From Clostridia bacterium (GTDB lineage Bacteria > Bacillota > Clostridia > Christensenellales > UBA1242): 51,828 bases of DNA. The number at the start of each line of letters is the position of its first letter. Position 1 is the stretch's first letter. The translations under genes were made by a program, and so were the position numbers. Where the stretch lies: contig JAFTYD010000018.1 in assembly GCA_017464845.1 (NCBI GenBank), forward strand, positions 1 to 51,828, given 5' to 3'. This document shows, in pieces, positions 5,758-20,146 of the stretch. The notes under the pieces were generated by a model. It worked only from the letters and a program-made list of their open reading frames with translations, did no database searches and was not told the origin of the DNA.

Positions 5758-5780
5758 ATGGCTACTTTATGCCGTGAAAG

Positions 5781-5912
5781 GTACTTGACAAGAGAAGAAA
5801 TGAAAAAACAATATCAAAAGGCAGAGAAACAAAAAAAATAAATAAGCACAACTCTTGTTTCTCTGTCTTAACCAGCAAAAAGAAAATCATTTCAGAGACT
5901 CTTGTCAAGTAC
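5781..5912. repeat. 132-bp nested inverted-repeat element
   Basis: Three collinear helices fold one on another. The outer is 14 bp perfect (5781-5794 with 5899-5912), the middle 7 bp perfect (5797-5803 with 5887-5893), and the inner 13 bp with one wobble (5820-5832 with 5855-5867). A 22-nt loop closes the structure. There is no credible gene on either strand. It could be a small non-autonomous mobile element or a structured RNA. It lies between a terminator and two more hairpins in a ~430-bp gene-free patch. Confidence 0.65.
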
Positions 5913-5946
5913 ACCATGGAATAAATTAGCCAATTAAAATAACAGC

Positions 5947-5990
5947 AAAAAAGCGAAGGTGTGATTTGCTCTGCCACACTTCGCTTTTTT
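5947..5990. terminator. strong bidirectional terminator-like hairpin
   Basis: A perfect 12-bp stem (5947-5958 with 5979-5990) is extended by TGTG/CACA after a one-base bulge. It starts with an A-run and ends with a T-run, so it could stop transcription in either direction. It is orphaned from any gene. Confidence 0.6.
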
Positions 5991-6013
5991 GTCTGCTTTA
6001 ATTTAATTTTGTT

Positions 6014-6068
6014 CGTGTGCTTGTCGTGTTCGAGCGAAGCGAGAACACTTGTATATGACAAGCACACG
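6014..6068. repeat. 55-bp imperfect palindrome
   Basis: A perfect 12-bp outer stem (6014-6025 with 6057-6068) encloses a perfect 6-bp inner stem GTGTTC/GAACAC (6026-6031 with 6043-6048). The apex contains GAGCGAAGCGAG. Its base composition is clearly richer in G+C than its surroundings, which suggests an imported intergenic repeat. Confidence 0.6.
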
Positions 6069-8910: not shown

Positions 8911-8943
8911 ATATAATTTAATGCACAACAAATTAAAAATATG

Positions 8944-8952
8944 TGCTATAAT
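8944..8952 (+). promoter_or_regulatory. extended -10 of the GNAT gene
   Basis: TGCTATAAT, identical to the -10 of the hpt promoter including the preceding AAAAATATG. No convincing -35. Confidence 0.6.
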
Positions 8953-8973
8953 ATTTTTCAAATAGGAGTTATT

Positions 8974-9408
8974 ATGAAAATAATAAGATATCAAAATGAA
9001 TATAGAGATGATATGATTTATATGTACCTAACTGCAAAAAATGCGCTTGGTACTGTTCCAAAATTAAAAGAAGATTTGTTGGATATTGAAAGCAACTACT
9101 TCAAACAAGGTGGATATTTTTGGTTAGCAATTGACGATAACAATAGAGTTATAGGTTGTATCGGTATTAAAATTTTTGGCAATTCTGCTGAAGTAAAAAG
9201 ATTGTTTATTTTACCCAACTTAAAAAGACAAGGTATTGGAACAAAACTCTTTGACACCTTGGAAGATTACGCAAAAGAAAGAAATGTCAAAGAATTAAAA
9301 CTTCATTTGGGAGATATTAAATATTATTTTGAGTCAAGATTTTTTTATGCAAAAAAAGGTTTTGTTGAGTATGAACCTAGATATATGAGAAAAAGTTTGA
9401 TTGATTGA
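8974..9408 (+). CDS. GNAT-family N-acetyltransferase
   Basis: 144 aa, the usual size of a single GNAT domain. The acetyl-CoA site is RLFILPNLKRQGIGTKLF (Q/RxxGxG at about 90-95). The last strands end at GFVEYEPRYMRKS, as in GNATs with small-molecule or peptide substrates. The substrate is not predictable. An in-frame ATG exists at 8941, but it lies inside the promoter's -10. The ATG at 8974 has TAGGAG 5 nt upstream and is preferred. The gene lies immediately upstream of the reverse-transcriptase locus, in the same direction. No clear terminator separates them, but that locus has its own promoter. Confidence 0.85.
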   Translation: MKIIRYQNEYRDDMIYMYLTAKNALGTVPKLKEDLLDIESNYFKQGGYFWLAIDDNNRVIGCIGIKIFGNSAEVKRLFILPNLKRQGIGTKLFDTLEDYAKERNVKELKLHLGDIKYYFESRFFYAKKGFVEYEPRYMRKSLID

Positions 9409-9432
9409 AATAATTATATTAATTGATAAAAT

Positions 9433-9462
9433 TTGACACAATTTGATTTTGTGTGATATAAT
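9433..9462 (+). promoter_or_regulatory. consensus promoter of the RT-associated RNA, with dyad in spacer
   Basis: Perfect TTGACA (9433-9438), an 18-nt spacer, then perfect TATAAT (9457-9462) with a TG extension. It is among the strongest-looking promoters in the window. A 6-bp dyad ACACAA/TTGTGT (9436-9441, 9449-9454) lies between the two boxes and could be an operator. The predicted start falls at about 9469, the first base of the closing helix of the RNA. Confidence 0.85.
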
Positions 9463-9468
9463 TTGTTT

Positions 9469-9598
9469 AAGAAAGGAAAGTATGTTATACATCTGTGGTG
9501 AGGCGAAGCATATTTTTTATTAAGTCTTGCAGATGGCTAAAGTATGTTCAGTCTTGTAGCATTTTATGCTTTCAAAGCACATTCCTTTCTTTTTTATT
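9469..9598 (+). ncRNA. putative RT-associated structured RNA (~130 nt)
   Basis: The predicted transcript begins with AAGAAAGGAA (9469-9478) and ends with its perfect complement TTCCTTTCTT (9582-9591), followed by a T-rich run. The two ends thus form a 10-bp closing helix with a terminator-like tail. Inside are a GTAT/ATAC hairpin (9480-9490), a CATCTG/CAGATG helix (9490-9495 with 9530-9535) and an AGCAT/ATGCT hairpin (9558-9570). Two direct repeats also occur: AGTATGTT (9479, 9541) and AGTCTTGYAG (9523, 9550). There is no open frame of note. It ends 6 nt before the reverse transcriptase. It could be a template or primer RNA, or alternatively a regulatory leader. Confidence 0.6.
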
Positions 9599-9604
9599 TA
9601 GATT

Positions 9605-10807
9605 ATGATGAGTATAATAAATTCACTATTAGATAAAGGTAAGTGGCAAGAGTTTTTGGAACAAAAGATTTCAAAATCTCATATGACCAAAACAGAAGAA
9701 CAAAACTTAATTGATTTTGTGAACAATGAAGAGTATTATGATGTGGCAAAGGAAATTGTTGATGGCACATATATTTTTTCTGTTCCAAACAAAGCTATGG
9801 TAAACAAAAGTGGTAGCACAAAAAAGAGAGTTGTTTATACCTTTGACAATGTTGAAAGTATGATACTTAAGTTTGTTGTTTTCAATATGTCAAAATATGA
9901 CAGTGTGTTTAGTGACAACTGCTATTCTTTTAGAAAGAACTCAACTGTTAGAAAAGCTTTTTATAATGTTATAGACAACACAGATATAAACGATATGTAT
10001 GTTTACAAATTGGATATTAGTAATTATTTCAATAGTATAGATGTATCAAAATTACTTCCTATGCTTGAAAATATATTTGCTGATGATGTAAAATTATACT
10101 CATTTTTCAAAGATATTCTCACCGTAGATAAGTCTATGTTCAATGGTGAAATTGTAGAAGAAAAAAGAGGAGTTATGGCAGGAACTTCAATGTCAACATT
10201 TTTTGCAAATGTTTATCTTATGGATATGGATAAGTATTTTCAAAATAACGGAACAATCTATGCTAGATACTCTGATGATATAATCATTATGGATAAGGAT
10301 ATTGATAACTTAAAAAAGAATATATCATATATTCATAGTGTAATAAAAAGTCGTGGACTTACTATCAATTCTGACAAAGAAGAACTCTTTATGCCACATA
10401 CACCTTGGAACTTTTTAGGTTTTGAATATAACAATGGTGTTGTAGATTTATCTGATGTTACTTTGAAGAAAATAAAAGATAAGATAAGAAGAAAAGGTAG
10501 AGCTTTGTTTAGATGGAAAGTAAAAAAAGAAAAGACTACCGAACACGCTATAAAAGTTATGTTAAGAGTCTTTAACAACAAATTCTATAGAGAAGACCAT
10601 CAAAAAGATTTAACTTGGAGCAAATGGTTTTTCCCTGTTATTACTACCCATAAGAAGTTAGAGATAATAGATAATTATTTAGTACAATATTTGAGATACT
10701 TGTCAACAGGTAGATTTTCAAAGAAAAACTACAATATCACTTATGACTACTTGAAAAGTTTAGGTTTTAGGAGCCTTGTGAATGAATATTATAAATCAAA
10801 AAAATAG
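9605..10807 (+). CDS. reverse transcriptase of an unassigned (UG/DRT/retron-like) group
   Basis: 400 aa. Motif A is KLDISNYFNSI with D137. Motif C is YARYSDDIII with D224 and D225, so the catalytic triad is intact. The segment between them, RGVMAGTSMSTFFANVYL (188-205), stands where retrons have QGxPxSP, group II introns QGGxxSP and DGRs xGxxxSQ; none fits. The ~120-aa C-terminal region after the palm (WSKWFFPVITT, YLSTGRFSKKNY, LGFRSLVNEYY) is alpha-helical. It has no endonuclease, maturase zinc finger or fused nuclease. No ribosome-binding site precedes ATG 9605 (or 9608), and an in-frame TAG lies at 9599. It sits alone behind the structured RNA, as in single-gene defence RTs. The group assignment is open. 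Confidence 0.85.
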   Translation: MMSIINSLLDKGKWQEFLEQKISKSHMTKTEEQNLIDFVNNEEYYDVAKEIVDGTYIFSVPNKAMVNKSGSTKKRVVYTFDNVESMILKFVVFNMSKYDSVFSDNCYSFRKNSTVRKAFYNVIDNTDINDMYVYKLDISNYFNSIDVSKLLPMLENIFADDVKLYSFFKDILTVDKSMFNGEIVEEKRGVMAGTSMSTFFANVYLMDMDKYFQNNGTIYARYSDDIIIMDKDIDNLKKNISYIHSVIKSRGLTINSDKEELFMPHTPWNFLGFEYNNGVVDLSDVTLKKIKDKIRRKGRALFRWKVKKEKTTEHAIKVMLRVFNNKFYREDHQKDLTWSKWFFPVITTHKKLEIIDNYLVQYLRYLSTGRFSKKNYNITYDYLKSLGFRSLVNEYYKSKK

Positions 10808-10828
10808 ACATCATCGTCTATTTTTTTA
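10802..10828 (+). terminator. intrinsic terminator after the RT gene
   Basis: Stem AAATAGAC/GTCTATTT with loop ATCATC and a T-run. The stem overlaps the RT stop codon and ends just before the convergent hpt stop. Confidence 0.85.
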
Positions 10829-10832
10829 TATA

Positions 10833-11345
10833 TTAATCTTGGTCGTAGATATAGATATCTTTTAAGTTTCTATACTTTTCATCAAGGTCAAGTCCAAAAC
10901 CGATTACAAAAAGGTCTTCTATTGTTTTTCCTATAATATCAGGTTTAAAGTCATGTTTACGCTTTGATGGTTTGTCAAGCAAAGTTACAAATGTTAATGA
11001 GCTTGGTTTTCTGCTATAAAGTTCTTCTTTAAGTTTGCTTAAGGTAAGACCGGTATCGACTATATCTTCCACAATAATGACATCTCTGTCTTTTATGTCA
11101 AGTTCTAAATCTTTCTTAAAATGTAAAACTCCTGTACTTTGTGTACCACCAGAATAACTGCTTACTTGCAAGAAGTCAATGTCCATCATAAGGTCGATAT
11201 GTTTGATAAGTTCGCTATGAAAAGGCGAAGCACCTTTAAGTACACATACAACAATAGGAACTTTACCTTGGAATTTTTCAGTAATTTCTTTTCCAAGTCT
11301 TTTGCTTATTTCGACTATTTCTTCATGTGTTATTAATAGTTTCAT
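10833..11345 (-). CDS. hpt: hypoxanthine-guanine phosphoribosyltransferase
   Basis: 170 aa; salvages hypoxanthine and guanine with PRPP to give IMP and GMP. The PRPP loop is VIIVEDIVDTGLTL (two acidic residues, then DTG). The early VCVLKGASPF segment and the FVIGFGLDLDEKYRNL block near the C-terminus are standard for Hpt. The longer in-frame start at 11372 falls inside the promoter. The ATG at 11345 has AAGGAG 6 nt upstream and yields the usual MKLLITHEEI start. Hpt usually sits by tilS and ftsH in Bacillota; here it stands alone and converges on the RT gene. Confidence 0.93.
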   Translation of the reverse strand: MKLLITHEEIVEISKRLGKEITEKFQGKVPIVVCVLKGASPFHSELIKHIDLMMDIDFLQVSSYSGGTQSTGVLHFKKDLELDIKDRDVIIVEDIVDTGLTLSKLKEELYSRKPSSLTFVTLLDKPSKRKHDFKPDIIGKTIEDLFVIGFGLDLDEKYRNLKDIYIYDQD

Positions 11346-11370
11346 CTTTTTCTCCTTATTTAATAAAAGC

Positions 11371-11399
11371 ATTATAGCACATATTTTTAAATTTGTGTA
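11371..11399 (-). promoter_or_regulatory. hpt promoter
   Basis: Minus strand: TACACA, a 17-nt spacer, then TATAAT with TGC extension. It shares an 18-bp block around the -10 with the GNAT promoter at 8935-8952. Confidence 0.65.
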
Positions 11400-16974: not shown

Positions 16975-17703
16975 ATGGAAAAAGATTATTCAAAAATAGC
17001 GAATGAAGAGAAATGTAAAGAGTTTTCAAAAATAGTTATAGATGCCTATAAGTATTATGTTAAACTTTGCAAAAAATACGACAGGATTGTTGGAGAAGAA
17101 AGTGTTCGTGGAATAATGGAAAACGAATTTCAAGACTTTATCTGTGGAAAAGTTTGTCGTGGAGATAAGAGTTTAATTTTCAAAAAGTCAATTGAAAATG
17201 ACCCTGAAAGAAAAATTTATCGTGGTATTGCAAGTATTTCAATTGACAATTATTTACAAATCTTAAAAAGCAAAAACTCATCTGTTTATCGTATGGGTGC
17301 TTATGGTGAAGGTTTGTATTTTAGTGCAGACAAAACATTTGCAACAAGATACAGTGATAGTTTTGGTGGAATGGTTTTTGCAACAATGGGTGATGATTGC
17401 AAAATAACAAATCCGGGAAATCTTGTTGATGAAAGATATGAGTTCAATAAGTTTTATATGCAATCTCCTCAATATAAAAAACTTCCAAGAGAAATAAGAG
17501 ATTGGTGCAGAAAAAACATTATCTATAACAACAGAAACAATACTTTCTATGCTGGCTTTTTAGGTTATGATGCAATTAGAATAGAACATGTTTATTGTAT
17601 TTTTAATCTTGATAAAATAGTGATTGAAGATAAAAAATTAAAAACAAATATTGAAGTAAAAGAAACCAAGAAAAACATTTTTGCAAAAGTATTTGGAAAA
17701 TAA
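16975..17703 (+). CDS. ART-fold-like protein, paralogue 1 of 4
   Basis: 242 aa, soluble, no signal peptide. An N-terminal helical part (1-75: Tyr/Lys-rich, then CRGDKSLIFKKS) leads to a core with IYRG, GEGLYFS, an A-x-x-Y step, GG and AGFLGYD. It ends with FNLDKIVIED and a Lys-rich tail closing in VFGK. The Arg (YRG) and the G-x-G-x-Y-x-S step match the order of the first two motifs of mono-ADP-ribosyltransferases; the late Glu in VIED could be the third. The fold call is inference. It has its own leaderless promoter and terminator. Together with the next three genes it forms a tandem paralogue array. Confidence 0.6.
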   Translation: MEKDYSKIANEEKCKEFSKIVIDAYKYYVKLCKKYDRIVGEESVRGIMENEFQDFICGKVCRGDKSLIFKKSIENDPERKIYRGIASISIDNYLQILKSKNSSVYRMGAYGEGLYFSADKTFATRYSDSFGGMVFATMGDDCKITNPGNLVDERYEFNKFYMQSPQYKKLPREIRDWCRKNIIYNNRNNTFYAGFLGYDAIRIEHVYCIFNLDKIVIEDKKLKTNIEVKETKKNIFAKVFGK

Positions 17704-17732
17704 AGATTTGACTTTTTGTCAAGTCTTTTTTT
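17702..17732 (+). terminator. terminator of paralogue 1
   Basis: Stem AAAGATTTGAC/GTCAAGTCTTT (one wobble) with a T5 loop and a T-run. Confidence 0.88.
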
Positions 17733-17799
17733 AATGTCATCTTAAATAAATTCTAAATTTAGGTTAAAACCTTACTATTCAAAAATTTATAATTTGCTA

Positions 17800-17828
17800 T
17801 TGAAATTAAATTTTAAGTATGGTATAAT
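17800..17828 (+). promoter_or_regulatory. leaderless promoter of ART-like paralogue 2
   Basis: TTGAAA, a 17-nt spacer, then a perfect TATAAT with TGG extension. ATG follows after six bases; no ribosome-binding site. Confidence 0.8.
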
Positions 17829-17834
17829 TTTTTC

Positions 17835-18545
17835 ATGGAAAATATTAGTAACGAAAAATATAAAGAATTTACACAAATCTTAAAAGACTCTTATGCATAT
17901 TATTTAGAGCTTTGTGAAAAGTACAATAGACCTGTCGGTTGTACAATTTGGACAAATGAAGAAATGGAAAAAGAGTTTAATACTTTTTTATATAAAAAGG
18001 TTTGTCGTGGAGATAATCAAATTGTTTTCAAAAAAAGTATTGGCGATGATGAAAACAAAATTTATCGTGGTCTTGCAAATCTATCTTCATATGATTATTT
18101 CAAAATCTTGAAAGCAAAAAATTCAAATATCTATCGTAAGGGAAGTTACGGTGATGGAATGTATTTCAGTGCAGAGGTATCTTGCGCAAAAAATTATGTT
18201 GAAAACAATGGAGCACTTATCACAGCTGCGTTTGCTGATGATTGTAAGTTTGTTAACTGGACAGCTATTGATGACCAAAGAGATACTTTTATTCATGAAT
18301 ATGTTAACTCTGGCGAATATGCAAACTTTACACCAGAAGAAAAAACTTTTGTTGAAAAAAGTTTCTTCAATAACGACATACCAACTTTCTATGCTGGTTT
18401 CTTTGGATATGATGCTTTGAGATTTGGACATGTATATTGTGTTTTCAATCTTGATAAAATAGTTATCGAAGACAAAAATATGGTTGAAGAAAAAGTTGAA
18501 GAAAAACCTAAAAAGAATTTCTTTTCAATGGTATTTGGAAAATAA
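17835..18545 (+). CDS. ART-fold-like protein, paralogue 2 of 4
   Basis: 236 aa, the closest relative of paralogue 1. It shares the N-terminal helical part, the CRGD...FKKS segment, IYRG, GDGMYFS, AGFFGYD, FNLDKIVIED and the Lys-rich tail ending VFGK. The residues between GG and AGF are the least conserved, as expected of a specificity region. No signal peptide. It is monocistronic, with promoter and terminator laid out as in the other copies. The conserved C-terminal tail of copies 1 and 2 could be a localisation or partner-binding signal (inference). Confidence 0.6.
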   Translation: MENISNEKYKEFTQILKDSYAYYLELCEKYNRPVGCTIWTNEEMEKEFNTFLYKKVCRGDNQIVFKKSIGDDENKIYRGLANLSSYDYFKILKAKNSNIYRKGSYGDGMYFSAEVSCAKNYVENNGALITAAFADDCKFVNWTAIDDQRDTFIHEYVNSGEYANFTPEEKTFVEKSFFNNDIPTFYAGFFGYDALRFGHVYCVFNLDKIVIEDKNMVEEKVEEKPKKNFFSMVFGK

Positions 18546-18573
18546 AACTTGACGGAAATGTCAAGTTTTTTAT
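18544..18573 (+). terminator. terminator of paralogue 2
   Basis: Perfect 10-bp stem AAAACTTGAC/GTCAAGTTTT with a GGAAAT loop and a T-run. Confidence 0.9.
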
Positions 18574-18601
18574 TTTAATTAAAAAGTTAATATAAAATAT
18601 A

Positions 18602-18630
18602 TTGAAATTGATTTAAAGATATGTTAATAT
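18602..18630 (+). promoter_or_regulatory. leaderless promoter of ART-like paralogue 3
   Basis: TTGAAA, a 17-nt spacer, then TAATAT with TGT extension. ATG follows after six bases. Confidence 0.7.
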
Positions 18631-18636
18631 ATTTAC

Positions 18637-19338
18637 ATGGAAAACGAATATAAAAACAATTATAAATTTTTTACAGAGATAGTTAAAGAAGCATATGAGT
18701 TTTGGAAAGGTGTATGTCAGGAAAAAAATATTGACATAGACGCACCTGCTTTTACTTTTATTGATGACTTTGAAGAAGCAGAAACTCTTAAAGATTTATT
18801 TATCAAAAAAACTTGTAATGGTGATAAAAGAATGTTTTTTAAATCTGACCTTTCAGAAGAAGGTGGACAAAAGATTTATCGTGGTATAAGAAATTTGTCT
18901 ATTGAAGATTATATCAAATGTTTAAAAAATAGGTCTAGTTCAGTTTATCGTAAAGGTGTCATTGGAGATGGAATATATTTTTCTTATCAAATGCAAACTG
19001 CTCAAAAATACGAAAACCAACAAGGTGGTTTAATAAAAGCTGAACTTGGTAAATGTTTCAAAGTTGTTGACTATTTCACATTAAGTGGAATGATTGACGA
19101 TTATCTTGAAGGTTACCTTATGTCAGAAGAATATAATAATCTAGACAAGGAAGTTAAAGACTGGGCTTGCACAAATCTTTCAAGCGAAGAACTTTTTACT
19201 TTCTATGCAGGTATGTTTGGTTATGATGCAATAAATCTTAGAGATAATGTTTGTGTCTATAATCTTGATAAGGTTGTTATTGAAGATAAATATAATGTAT
19301 TACCAAAACAAAACGAAAACGGAATAGTTAAAATATAA
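18637..19338 (+). CDS. ART-fold-like protein, paralogue 3 of 4
   Basis: 233 aa. Conserved landmarks are CNGDKRMFFKS, IYRG, GDGIYFS, A-x-x-Y, GG, AGMFGYD and YNLDKVVIED. The N-terminus is diverged and acidic. The VFGK tail of copies 1 and 2 is missing; the protein ends soon after VIEDK. No ribosome-binding site lies upstream. The candidate Arg, Ser and Glu positions are all retained. Function unknown; the ART-like reading rests on motif order only. Confidence 0.58.
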   Translation: MENEYKNNYKFFTEIVKEAYEFWKGVCQEKNIDIDAPAFTFIDDFEEAETLKDLFIKKTCNGDKRMFFKSDLSEEGGQKIYRGIRNLSIEDYIKCLKNRSSSVYRKGVIGDGIYFSYQMQTAQKYENQQGGLIKAELGKCFKVVDYFTLSGMIDDYLEGYLMSEEYNNLDKEVKDWACTNLSSEELFTFYAGMFGYDAINLRDNVCVYNLDKVVIEDKYNVLPKQNENGIVKI

Positions 19339-19368
19339 AAGACTTGAGAAAAATCAAGTCTTTTTATT
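19337..19368 (+). terminator. terminator of paralogue 3
   Basis: Perfect 11-bp stem AAAAGACTTGA/TCAAGTCTTTT and a T-run. Confidence 0.9.
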
Positions 19369-19376
19369 TTTTCTTA

Positions 19377-19405
19377 TTGCAATAAGAATTTAGGTGTGTT
19401 ATAAT
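19377..19405 (+). promoter_or_regulatory. leaderless promoter of ART-like paralogue 4
   Basis: TTGCAA, a 17-nt spacer, then a perfect TATAAT with TGT extension. ATG 19412 follows after six bases. Confidence 0.8.
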
Positions 19406-19411
19406 AATTTC

Positions 19412-20146
19412 ATGGAAAATAATAATTTGTTTAATGAAGATGAAAAAGTAGTTGAATTCGCTAATGTAATGAAAGATGCATTTGAATACACTAAATATGT
19501 TTGCGAACATACAAAAGAAAATATTTACAATCCTTTTTATTACACACAAACTGTGGGAGATAAATTGACTAGATTTGTTTATGAAAGATTATGTAAAGGT
19601 AAACAAGGAATGCAATTTAAACCAACACTTGATGATGTGGAAGGGAAAAGAATTTATCGTGGCATACATAAAATGAGTTTGTCAAGATATAGAAAAATCC
19701 TTAAAAGCAAATATAGTACTATCTTTAGACAAGGATATTTGGGTGCAGGTATGTATGTTAGCGAAAGTTATAACAATGCAAAAATATATGTAGATAGAAG
19801 AGGTGGTGTGCTTGAAGCAGTTATTTCACCAGATGCAAAACTTATAACCAAAAACGACTTGAATGAAGCAATATATGAATTTAAGGATAAGTTCTTTAAT
19901 TCAAATACTTTTAAAAACCTTGATGAAAATTTAAAAGAATGGATTATGATAAACTTTCCTTTTGAAGCAGATGATACCTTTACATCAGCTATGGCAGGTT
20001 TCCTTGGTTATGATGGGGTAAAGTTAAGAAGCAATAGTGAAGTTATAAAAGCAATTTGCCTTGTAAACCTTGATAAAGTAACATTCAAAGATAAAGGTAA
20101 TGGAAAGGTAAAGAAAACTAAACCTAATAAAGAAATACAAAAATAA
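19412..20146 (+). CDS. ART-fold-like protein, paralogue 4 of 4 (most diverged)
   Basis: 244 aa. The frame is open further upstream, to an ATG at 19394, but that ATG lies in the promoter before the -10. The start at 19412 gives MENNNLF and the same six-base distance as the other copies. It keeps IYRG, GAGMYVS, A-x-x-Y, GG, AGFLGYDGV and NLDK. The late VIED becomes VTFKD, so the candidate third catalytic acid is lost. The linker before AGFLGYD is longer. The C-terminus is basic. It converges with the next gene across a shared terminator. It may be an inactive or re-purposed copy. Confidence 0.58.
   Translation: MENNNLFNEDEKVVEFANVMKDAFEYTKYVCEHTKENIYNPFYYTQTVGDKLTRFVYERLCKGKQGMQFKPTLDDVEGKRIYRGIHKMSLSRYRKILKSKYSTIFRQGYLGAGMYVSESYNNAKIYVDRRGGVLEAVISPDAKLITKNDLNEAIYEFKDKFFNSNTFKNLDENLKEWIMINFPFEADDTFTSAMAGFLGYDGVKLRSNSEVIKAICLVNLDKVTFKDKGNGKVKKTKPNKEIQK

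Follow-up and report, generated by a model that had tools for sequence, protein, structure and literature searches.

Among the UG reverse transcriptases (RTs), DRT2, DRT3 and DRT9 belong to a small group of members with a noncoding RNA (ncRNA), according to the available text of a paper in EMBO J (PMC12489045), and DRT10 has since been added to the ncRNA-bearing enzymes (PMC12632851, available text). The latter source describes all experimentally characterised UG enzymes as antiphage. Only a few of the many UG RTs have a known RNA and product. Here we describe a locus in a 51,828-nt stretch of DNA from a Clostridia bacterium (contig JAFTYD010000018.1, assembly GCA_017464845.1; the whole stretch is called the window), in which an RT gene of group UG26 follows an RNA of the Rfam family RT-5. 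The RNA and the RT are probably parts of one DNA-making machine, perhaps directed against viruses. The UG26 RT group, the RT-5 RNA and, in PADLOC, a model of the usual partner protein are already catalogued. Added here are a tight tie between RT-5 and UG26 in two overlapping genome collections, a pseudoknot and a closing helix with covariation, evidence for action in trans, recurrent absence of the partner, accompanied by a promoter upstream of the RNA, and a candidate template that varies freely.

The locus resembled the ncRNA-dependent systems DRT2, DRT9 and DRT10 in having a conserved ncRNA linked to a UG RT. With DRT9 (UG28) and DRT10 (UG17) it shared a compact RT with one structured ncRNA, a related RT profile and a Tyr- or Ser-bearing C-terminal tail, and with DRT10 also a poorly conserved candidate template loop. 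Unlike DRT10, RT-5 had no clear A-B-A′ pattern, and unlike DRT9, it had no universally conserved poly-U tract and did have a pseudoknot, a word absent from the main texts of PMC12483538 and PMC12489045 as far as these were available. A SLATT gene did not turn up among the genes that recur beside UG26 RTs; no profile search aimed at SLATT was made. With DRT2 (UG2) the locus shared an upstream ncRNA that folds into stem-loops and a short pseudoknot, which in DRT2 has five pairs and is held by the RT (PMC12596737, available text), whereas the DRT2 ncRNA is ~280 nt long (PMC12489045, available text) against ~125 nt for RT-5, in which no endless frame was found. Retrons, diversity-generating retroelements (DGRs) and group II introns were similar in the RT fold, in an RNA beside the RT gene and, for group II, in sequence, but no repeat target was noted and no msr/msd layout was recognised in the UG26 locus. 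An earlier, sequence-only reading of this DNA had likened the locus to DRT2 and DRT9 more than to these elements, a comparison borne out here; the signature motifs of these elements were absent or sporadic in UG26 RTs.

A UG26 reverse transcriptase and an RT-5 RNA

The 400-aa RT (9605–10807, + strand; catalytic YSDD, Tyr380 and a C-terminal EYY) matched the PADLOC profile RT_UG26 over residues 2–400 at 514.8 bits (E 3e-155). The next PADLOC profiles were UG27 (111.8 bits), the general RT model (108.9), UG4 (107.5), Drt9 (96) and UG17 (=DRT10; 86.6), and the DRT2 (UG2) profile was weaker (65 bits). Pfam returned RVT_1 only, and no NCBIfam model was above its cut-off, the best being a group II intron RT (101.6 against a cut-off of 300 bits). 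By its profile score the window RT is assigned to the catalogued group UG26.

NAxxH and VTG are motifs of retron RTs, QG...SP of group II intron RTs and G...SQ of DGR RTs. Among 81 aligned UG26 RTs, QG...SP and QG.P.SP were found in none and G...SQ in one, and, looked for anywhere in the protein, NA..H was found in two and VTG in five. MAG[TVIS][PS] was matched by 72 of the 81, and the window RT reads AGTSMST at the equivalent place. The sequence-only reading, which had pointed to intact catalytic Asp residues and to AGTSMST in place of the retron, DGR and group II signatures, was right on both counts for the window, and the second extends, with the one G...SQ, to the family. Retron, DGR and group II intron identities were rejected on the RT motifs, the RT_UG26 score and the Rfam result. 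The suggestion of a new or poorly described RT system did not survive in the sense of a new group, since the RT is UG26, the RNA is RT-5 and the usual partner is already a PADLOC model.

Upstream of the RT gene, Rfam RF03026 (RT-5) matched positions 9487–9584 at 54 bits (cut-off 45.7), with the whole 104-position model covered. Nothing else in the 51.8-kb window, intron RNAs included, reached an Rfam cut-off; a second, sub-threshold Rfam match (9430–9480, 22.1 against 60.8 bits) looked like chance. On this match the window RNA is classed as a member of RT-5, a family which reportedly came from a 2017 survey of 224 candidate RNAs and for which, to our knowledge, no function is stated in Rfam.

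Linkage of the RNA and the RT across genomes

Among 391 sampled genomes from the window's class (the class sample; UG26 at E≤1e-42; RT-5 at E≤1e-3, scored with Infernal's stricter filters), a UG26 RT was found in 16 genomes and RT-5 in 15, all among those 16 and 14 of them over the Rfam cut-off. The sole UG26 genome without RT-5 (G618) had the most distant RT (284 bits). A sample of 398 genomes of the phylum gave two strong UG26 matches (515 and 463 bits; the next was 140), and the same two genomes held RT-5.

A second collection, in which 84,980 species are each represented by a single genome, was scanned with a profile of 15 UG26 RTs and gave at least 438 confirmed candidates, of which the best 80 were kept (the 80 loci); it overlaps the class sample (L127 and L033, identical sequence). 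At the Rfam cut-off RT-5 was found, once each, in 76 of the 80 loci, so the check for homologues without a conserved upstream RNA came out in favour of the earlier reading. The four others were L072, L089, L105 and L120; the RT of L120 begins 60 bases from the contig end. Our own covariance model, R1, was built with a hand-drawn structure from 13 of the 15 class-sample RNAs, closing helix included. It matched at E≤1e-3 in 74 of the 80 loci, and its default filters missed or weakly scored L072, L089, L092, L097, L105 and L120, of which Rfam finds L092 and L097. With these filters off, weak R1 matches lay at the right place in L072 (13.9 bits, E 0.33) and L089 (23.1 bits). In 28 loci of other RTs, R1 gave nothing at E<0.1. 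UG26 is now tied to a conserved RNA.

Structure of the RNA

The RNA extended from closing helix to closing helix over 9469–9591 (+ strand, 123 nt, or 127 nt with the T-run), on the evidence of RF03026 and R1, the latter matching 9465–9596 at 77.1 bits (the window RNA is included in R1). The 5′ arm of the closing helix H1, AAGAAAGGAA (9469–9478), pairs over 10 bp with the 3′ arm, TTCCTTTCTT (9582–9591), which is followed by a T-run (9590–9595). A pseudoknot joins AUCUGU (9491–9496) to GCAGAU (9529–9534), the latter inside the loop of H4. The arm formed by H2, H3 and H4 (9500–9555, positions assigned by hand from the sequence) comprises H2 (9500–9504 with 9551–9555), H3 (9508–9516 with 9539–9547) and H4 (9523–9526 with 9535–9538), and between H3 and H4 lies a freely varying bulge, UUAUUA (9517–9522), a candidate template or spacer. 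A hairpin, H5, lies at 9558–9570 and precedes a conserved UYNAA segment (UCAAA in the window), as indicated by covariation and conservation. All these elements are on the + strand. The Rfam model covers the inner part of the RNA only: the closing helix of the window lies outside it, and the pseudoknot is unannotated in it.

A sigma-70-type promoter, TTGACA-N18-TATAAT with a TG ahead of the −10, lies at 9433–9462 (+ strand) and matches the consensus in 12 of 12 positions. It was the sole 12-of-12 match within 9200–10900, but this is merely suggestive because the total of promoter-like sites there (12) equalled that in shuffled sequences (12.0). The perfect promoter, the pairing of the two RNA ends over 10 bp and the T-run were all as the sequence-only reading had given them, except that the ATG of the RT (9605) is nine bases past the T-run, not six. 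Since 16 perfect 10-mer inverted pairs at 80–140 nt spacing occur in the window, some overlapping each other, the closing pair alone is weak evidence. The fold of the window RNA was only moderately better than that of shuffled sequences (z −2.21; 5 of 200 shuffles as good). The case for the RNA rests instead on the Rfam match and on covariation in relatives. The earlier claim of a dedicated upstream structured RNA with its own promoter was supported.

For covariation, 89 RNAs were aligned to R1, from which the pseudoknot had been left out, and statistics were taken over 88 distinct rows. Of the cells assigned to pairs, 91.1% were paired, against 69.6% in shuffles and 43.8–50.3% with slid partners; changes on both sides were seen in 36 of 38 pairs, and the covariation score was 0.645 against 0.251. 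H1, for which a covariation check in homologues had been proposed, showed changes on both sides in all 11 modelled pairs, with 83.8% of cells paired, and H5 had 87.0% of cells paired, in an alignment that was fitted to both helices. In the pseudoknot 99.6% of countable cells were paired, with double changes at five of the six pairs; all six pairs were formed in 82 of the 89 rows, and five other rows were gapped there. RNAalifold on the raw MAFFT alignment recovered H2, H3 and H4 and a spurious two-pair stem, but neither H1 nor H5. H1 and H5 thus depend on the hand-drawn structure and on an alignment fitted by the covariance model, which favours both, and are less certain than the other helices, whereas the pseudoknot was no part of that model. 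A closed fold with five helices and a six-pair pseudoknot is supported. Among unpaired letters, conservation was complete in the GU that follows H2 and, in the UYNAA element beyond H5, at the U and the second A.

Position of the RNA and probable action in trans

RT-5 lay 24–94 nt ahead of the RT gene, in the same orientation, in 13 of the 15 class-sample genomes that hold it, an arrangement which, with the T-run shortly ahead of the RT start in the window, would also be expected if RT-5 were a cis-acting leader (an attenuator or riboswitch) controlling RT expression. Four loci speak against this. In G583 the RNA was 1.2 kb from the RT, with an opposite-strand family-43 glycoside hydrolase (GH43) gene between them. 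In G475 it was 7.3 kb away, with several genes between, including GH43, Fe-ADH-like and HD-domain genes. In L099 an upstream partner gene (described below) and the RNA were followed by TrkA- and TrkH-type genes and then by the RT, and in L115 the RNA and the RT were separated by 577 bases holding a 155-aa open reading frame (ORF). The RNAs of G583 and G475 scored 136 and 127 bits with R1, both being among its builders, and the searched stretches held no other strong copy. Because intervening genes split an intact RNA from the RT in all four loci, the RNA probably acts in trans with the RT and is not a mere mRNA leader. An assembly error is possible for any single split locus, but a pure leader is hard to square with all four. 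Furthermore, in loci with the partner gene the RNA follows the partner's stop, starting a median of 20 nt past it. We therefore regard a leader function as very improbable.

An upstream partner gene in most relatives

When 716 ORFs from the 80 loci and the window were clustered, one neighbour family was dominant (46 ORFs in 45 loci), every member lying upstream of the RT gene and sharing its strand. A profile built from 45 of those loci detected the family in 66 of the 80 loci and in six of the 15 sampled RNA loci, the match in G222 being weak (27 bits); two of the 14 loci that it missed (L105 and L120) have little upstream sequence. Searches of Pfam (six members) and NCBIfam (five members) gave no model above cut-off. 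The PADLOC model RTasCOG2852 matched five of six tested members weakly. Its strong matches in the class sample (172–197 bits) were in G514, G579, G639 and G694, where the matched gene always stands immediately before RT-5 and a UG26 RT; PADLOC thus already incorporates the association. COG2852 is a group of restriction-endonuclease-like proteins. No literature on RT-5 RNA, or on COG2852 with a reverse transcriptase, was found; subscription papers were mostly outside the scope of this search and the link may be published.

By eye, the partner protein has a short helix-like stretch at its N-terminus, which a linker rich in Q and P joins to a C-terminal domain. Since no D and E-x-K set was visible in the alignment, it may be catalytically dead. 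A search of solved structures with the partner profile gave weak matches only (best E 0.019), taken as chance. Variant partner genes were also seen: an ORF with two partner domain matches in L070 (4013–4765; L071 is also listed twice) and two tandem genes in L133 (3752–4854).

In the window the partner profile had no match at E<10, and the nearest relatives, L067 and L068, gave no match either. RTasCOG2852 had no match in the window's 94.5% complete genome, in a scan whose controls were also unmatched; this model misses at least G222 and G663, both of which our own profile finds. The claim that no second gene is attached therefore stands for the window and, as searched, for its genome, but not for the family, most loci of which have the upstream partner. 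The window is a minimal, partner-less form consisting of the RNA and the RT. A GNAT gene (8941–9408) was considered as a partner and rejected, as it falls outside the recurrent neighbour family and as partner-less loci have mostly unrelated upstream genes, the exceptions being near relatives of one another.

An RT tree of 96 rows (72 with the partner, 21 without and three uncounted) required at least eight changes between presence and absence of the partner on well supported branches. The RNA was retained in all 21 partner-less loci (R1 at E≤1e-3 or Rfam), and in 20 of them it was over the Rfam cut-off; that of G682 was below it (36 bits). A TATAAT at promoter distance before the RNA was found in 11 of 20 partner-less loci (L097 being absent from the alignment) and in two of 69 partner loci (Fisher p 2.9e-7; the window is among the 11 and was the source of the test). 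Bacteroidota promoters differ from others, and many partner loci are from Bacteroidota; the two groups are also of different ancestry and probably of different base composition, so this p-value overstates the difference. The perfect promoter of the window fits an independent RNA gene.

Partner-less loci L130 (6195–6650, − strand) and L063 (3467–3883) share an opposite-strand gene downstream of the RT, with 42% identity over 62 aa; L045 is listed alongside them. The N-terminus of the L130 protein (MGLFDSLKK) resembles that of the usual partner, and the partner profile scores it at 10.6 bits (E 0.32).

Proposed mechanism and candidate template

We think it rather likely that the UG26 RT and the RT-5 RNA form a two-part, ncRNA-dependent ribonucleoprotein of the DRT2/9/10 kind, present in the window in its partner-less form. 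The RNA would be transcribed from its own promoter (9433–9462), ending at or near the T-run, as its sequence suggests, and would fold into the closed, pseudoknotted structure to which covariation points. It would then partner the RT in trans, as the four split loci indicate. By analogy with DRT9, DRT10 and DRT2, the RT would most likely bind the RNA around the pseudoknot and copy a short unpaired stretch into DNA; the template would most likely be the bulge at 9517–9522, with the stable helix H3 as template boundary. Priming would probably be by a residue of the C-terminal tail of the RT, the candidates being Tyr380 (conserved in 81 of 81 UG26 RTs), Tyr395 (Y or F in 78) and Tyr396 (Y in 71). 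C-terminal tyrosines have been implicated in the priming of DRT9 (PMC12489045 and PMC12483538, available text) and a C-terminal serine in that of DRT10 (PMC12632851, available text). Like that of characterised UG enzymes, the DNA product would probably serve antiphage defence.

The bulge lies on the 5′ side between H3 and H4, has 5–13 nt in 78 of the 89 aligned RNAs and faces no opposing unpaired base in 56 of them. Among 96 locus pairs, 90 had RTs 70–85% identical; in these pairs, which are not independent of one another, bulge identity was 0.42–0.44 against 0.38–0.39 in shuffles. In the same pairs identity was 0.84–0.94 in H3, 0.84–0.87 in H5 with its loop, 0.81–0.87 in the UYNAA segment and ~0.95 in the pseudoknot strand, and the segment between H1 and the pseudoknot was also rather variable (0.49–0.66 against 0.38–0.43). 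Fourfold sites of the RT gene had 0.43–0.56 identity; as the bulge changes at about this rate, its variation does not argue for selection for change. An extra hairpin was seemingly inserted in the RNA bulge of a group of Bacillota loci (L069, L073, L076, L077, L080, L137 and L088), so the candidate template region can be restructured.

Several observations weigh against the ribonucleoprotein reading. Free variation of the bulge fits a mere spacer as well as a lineage-specific template, and in the six closest pairs (RTs 85–90% identical) the bulge was conserved (0.80 against 0.47 shuffled). An A-B-A′ repeat was not in excess in 77 distinct bulges (mean longest 1.831 against 1.794 shuffled, 161 of 500 shuffles as high), nor clearly so in two other RNA segments. 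With flank bases added, the 1+1 and 2+0 variants showed a weak excess (6 and 8 of 500 shuffles as high); these are two of six variants tried, and we make no claim on them. The unpaired segments of the alignment held no conserved poly-U, as in DRT9, or ACACAC, as in DRT3. For a DRT2-type endless frame, unit lengths of the 88 RNAs were spread 24/33/31 over the residues modulo 3. Endless whole units numbered 20 against 14.0 in shuffles (shuffle maximum 21), and three of six unit choices beat all 20 shuffles (H2–H2, 58 against 42.6; J1–H2 end, 47 against 31.9; H5–end, 46 against 29.4); as unit lengths showed no preference for multiples of three, this excess was put down to composition. As regards the RT, the UG26 profile matched, among solved structures, the group II RT GsI-IIC at 113.6 bits and the best UG-type chain (DRT9-length) at 86.5 bits, so by sequence it is equally close to group II intron RTs and other UG RTs. 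Because group II RTs score as high, general similarity alone would not place the RT; the UG26 profile does. The surroundings of the RT gave no evident defence island, ten neighbour proteins yielding one weak PADLOC match (18.3 bits), and none of 27 candidates from viral contigs, searched with two peptide patterns only, was confirmed as a UG26 RT. UG26 is listed in cold-seep viruses in the available text of PMC10504277, the one relevant paper that literature searches for UG26 found.

The lack of a template signature in the unpaired segments tested, the near-fourfold pace of the bulge and the placing of most of the conserved letters in the pseudoknot, parts of H2, H3 and H4 and the GU and UYNAA elements are what would be expected if the RNA were an essential scaffold or activator and not a template, the RT making DNA untemplated (Abi-like) or otherwise templated. 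On the other hand, the nearest UG profiles after UG26 include Drt9 and UG17/DRT10, whose RNAs are templates, and the template loop of DRT10 is likewise poorly conserved (PMC12632851, available text). A scaffold role appears unlikely to us.

If the two-part ribonucleoprotein does use the bulge as template, it might be a pseudoknotted, telomerase-like minimal enzyme (400 aa and ~125 nt) that writes lineage-specific short DNA words, a possibility that we put forward tentatively. In that case the tandem UUA of the window bulge could specify TAA repeats, the bulge word would be exchanged among relatives with the remainder of the RNA unchanged, and the partner-less form of the window would show that nothing beyond the RNA and the RT is needed.

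A ribonucleoprotein that works biochemically as proposed could also have a cellular role other than phage defence. The ten window neighbours include no convincing defence gene, and the neighbours in partner-less loci are heterogeneous, as such a role would allow. Its distribution, in contrast, is patchy: RT-5 is in few genomes of the class sample, the seven other members of the genus listed there have neither RT nor RNA, and the records with relatives carry the labels Bacillota, Bacteroidota and Actinomycetota. The UG enzymes characterised to date are antiphage (PMC12632851, available text), and we consider a role outside defence improbable.

UG26 and RT-5 offer a test object with likely RNA ends, compensatory pseudoknot changes and candidate template and priming residues, and natural loci that have or lack the partner protein are available for comparison. 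The system bears on the generality of ncRNA-templated DNA writing among UG enzymes related to DRT9 and DRT10.

Genome setting and other features of the window

RsmH from the window was 61–68% identical to its counterparts in 11 of 12 other genus genomes searched (the twelfth had no match), and the contig therefore fits its genus. An HPRT gene next to the RT (10833–11372, − strand) had no match in the 12 genomes, so recent acquisition or loss in the genus is possible, with no empty site demonstrable.

Many of the relatives came from metagenome-assembled genomes of gut and rumen, with the labels Bacillota, Bacteroidota and Actinomycetota and, once, Acidobacteriota. L115, a Bacteroidales record, was placed among Bacillota rows in the RT tree, which suggests inter-phylum transfer or a binning error. 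A phage scan gave two weak matches, and a plasmid scan gave 97 records, mostly group II introns among the matches listed. A scan of genome contigs with the single window RT protein as query gave no match.

A perfect 14-base inverted repeat (five overlapping 10-mer pairs; arms from 5781 and 5899, extent 5781–5912) contains TTGACA and lies within a doubtful ORF (5762–6067, − strand). At 16975–20146 (+ strand) there are four tandem, apparently paralogous ORFs of 233–250 aa with YRG...GxGxYFS-like motifs by eye. The first has a sub-threshold Pfam match to ART-PolyVal (E 0.083), and the four may be an ADP-ribosyltransferase-like tandem expansion.

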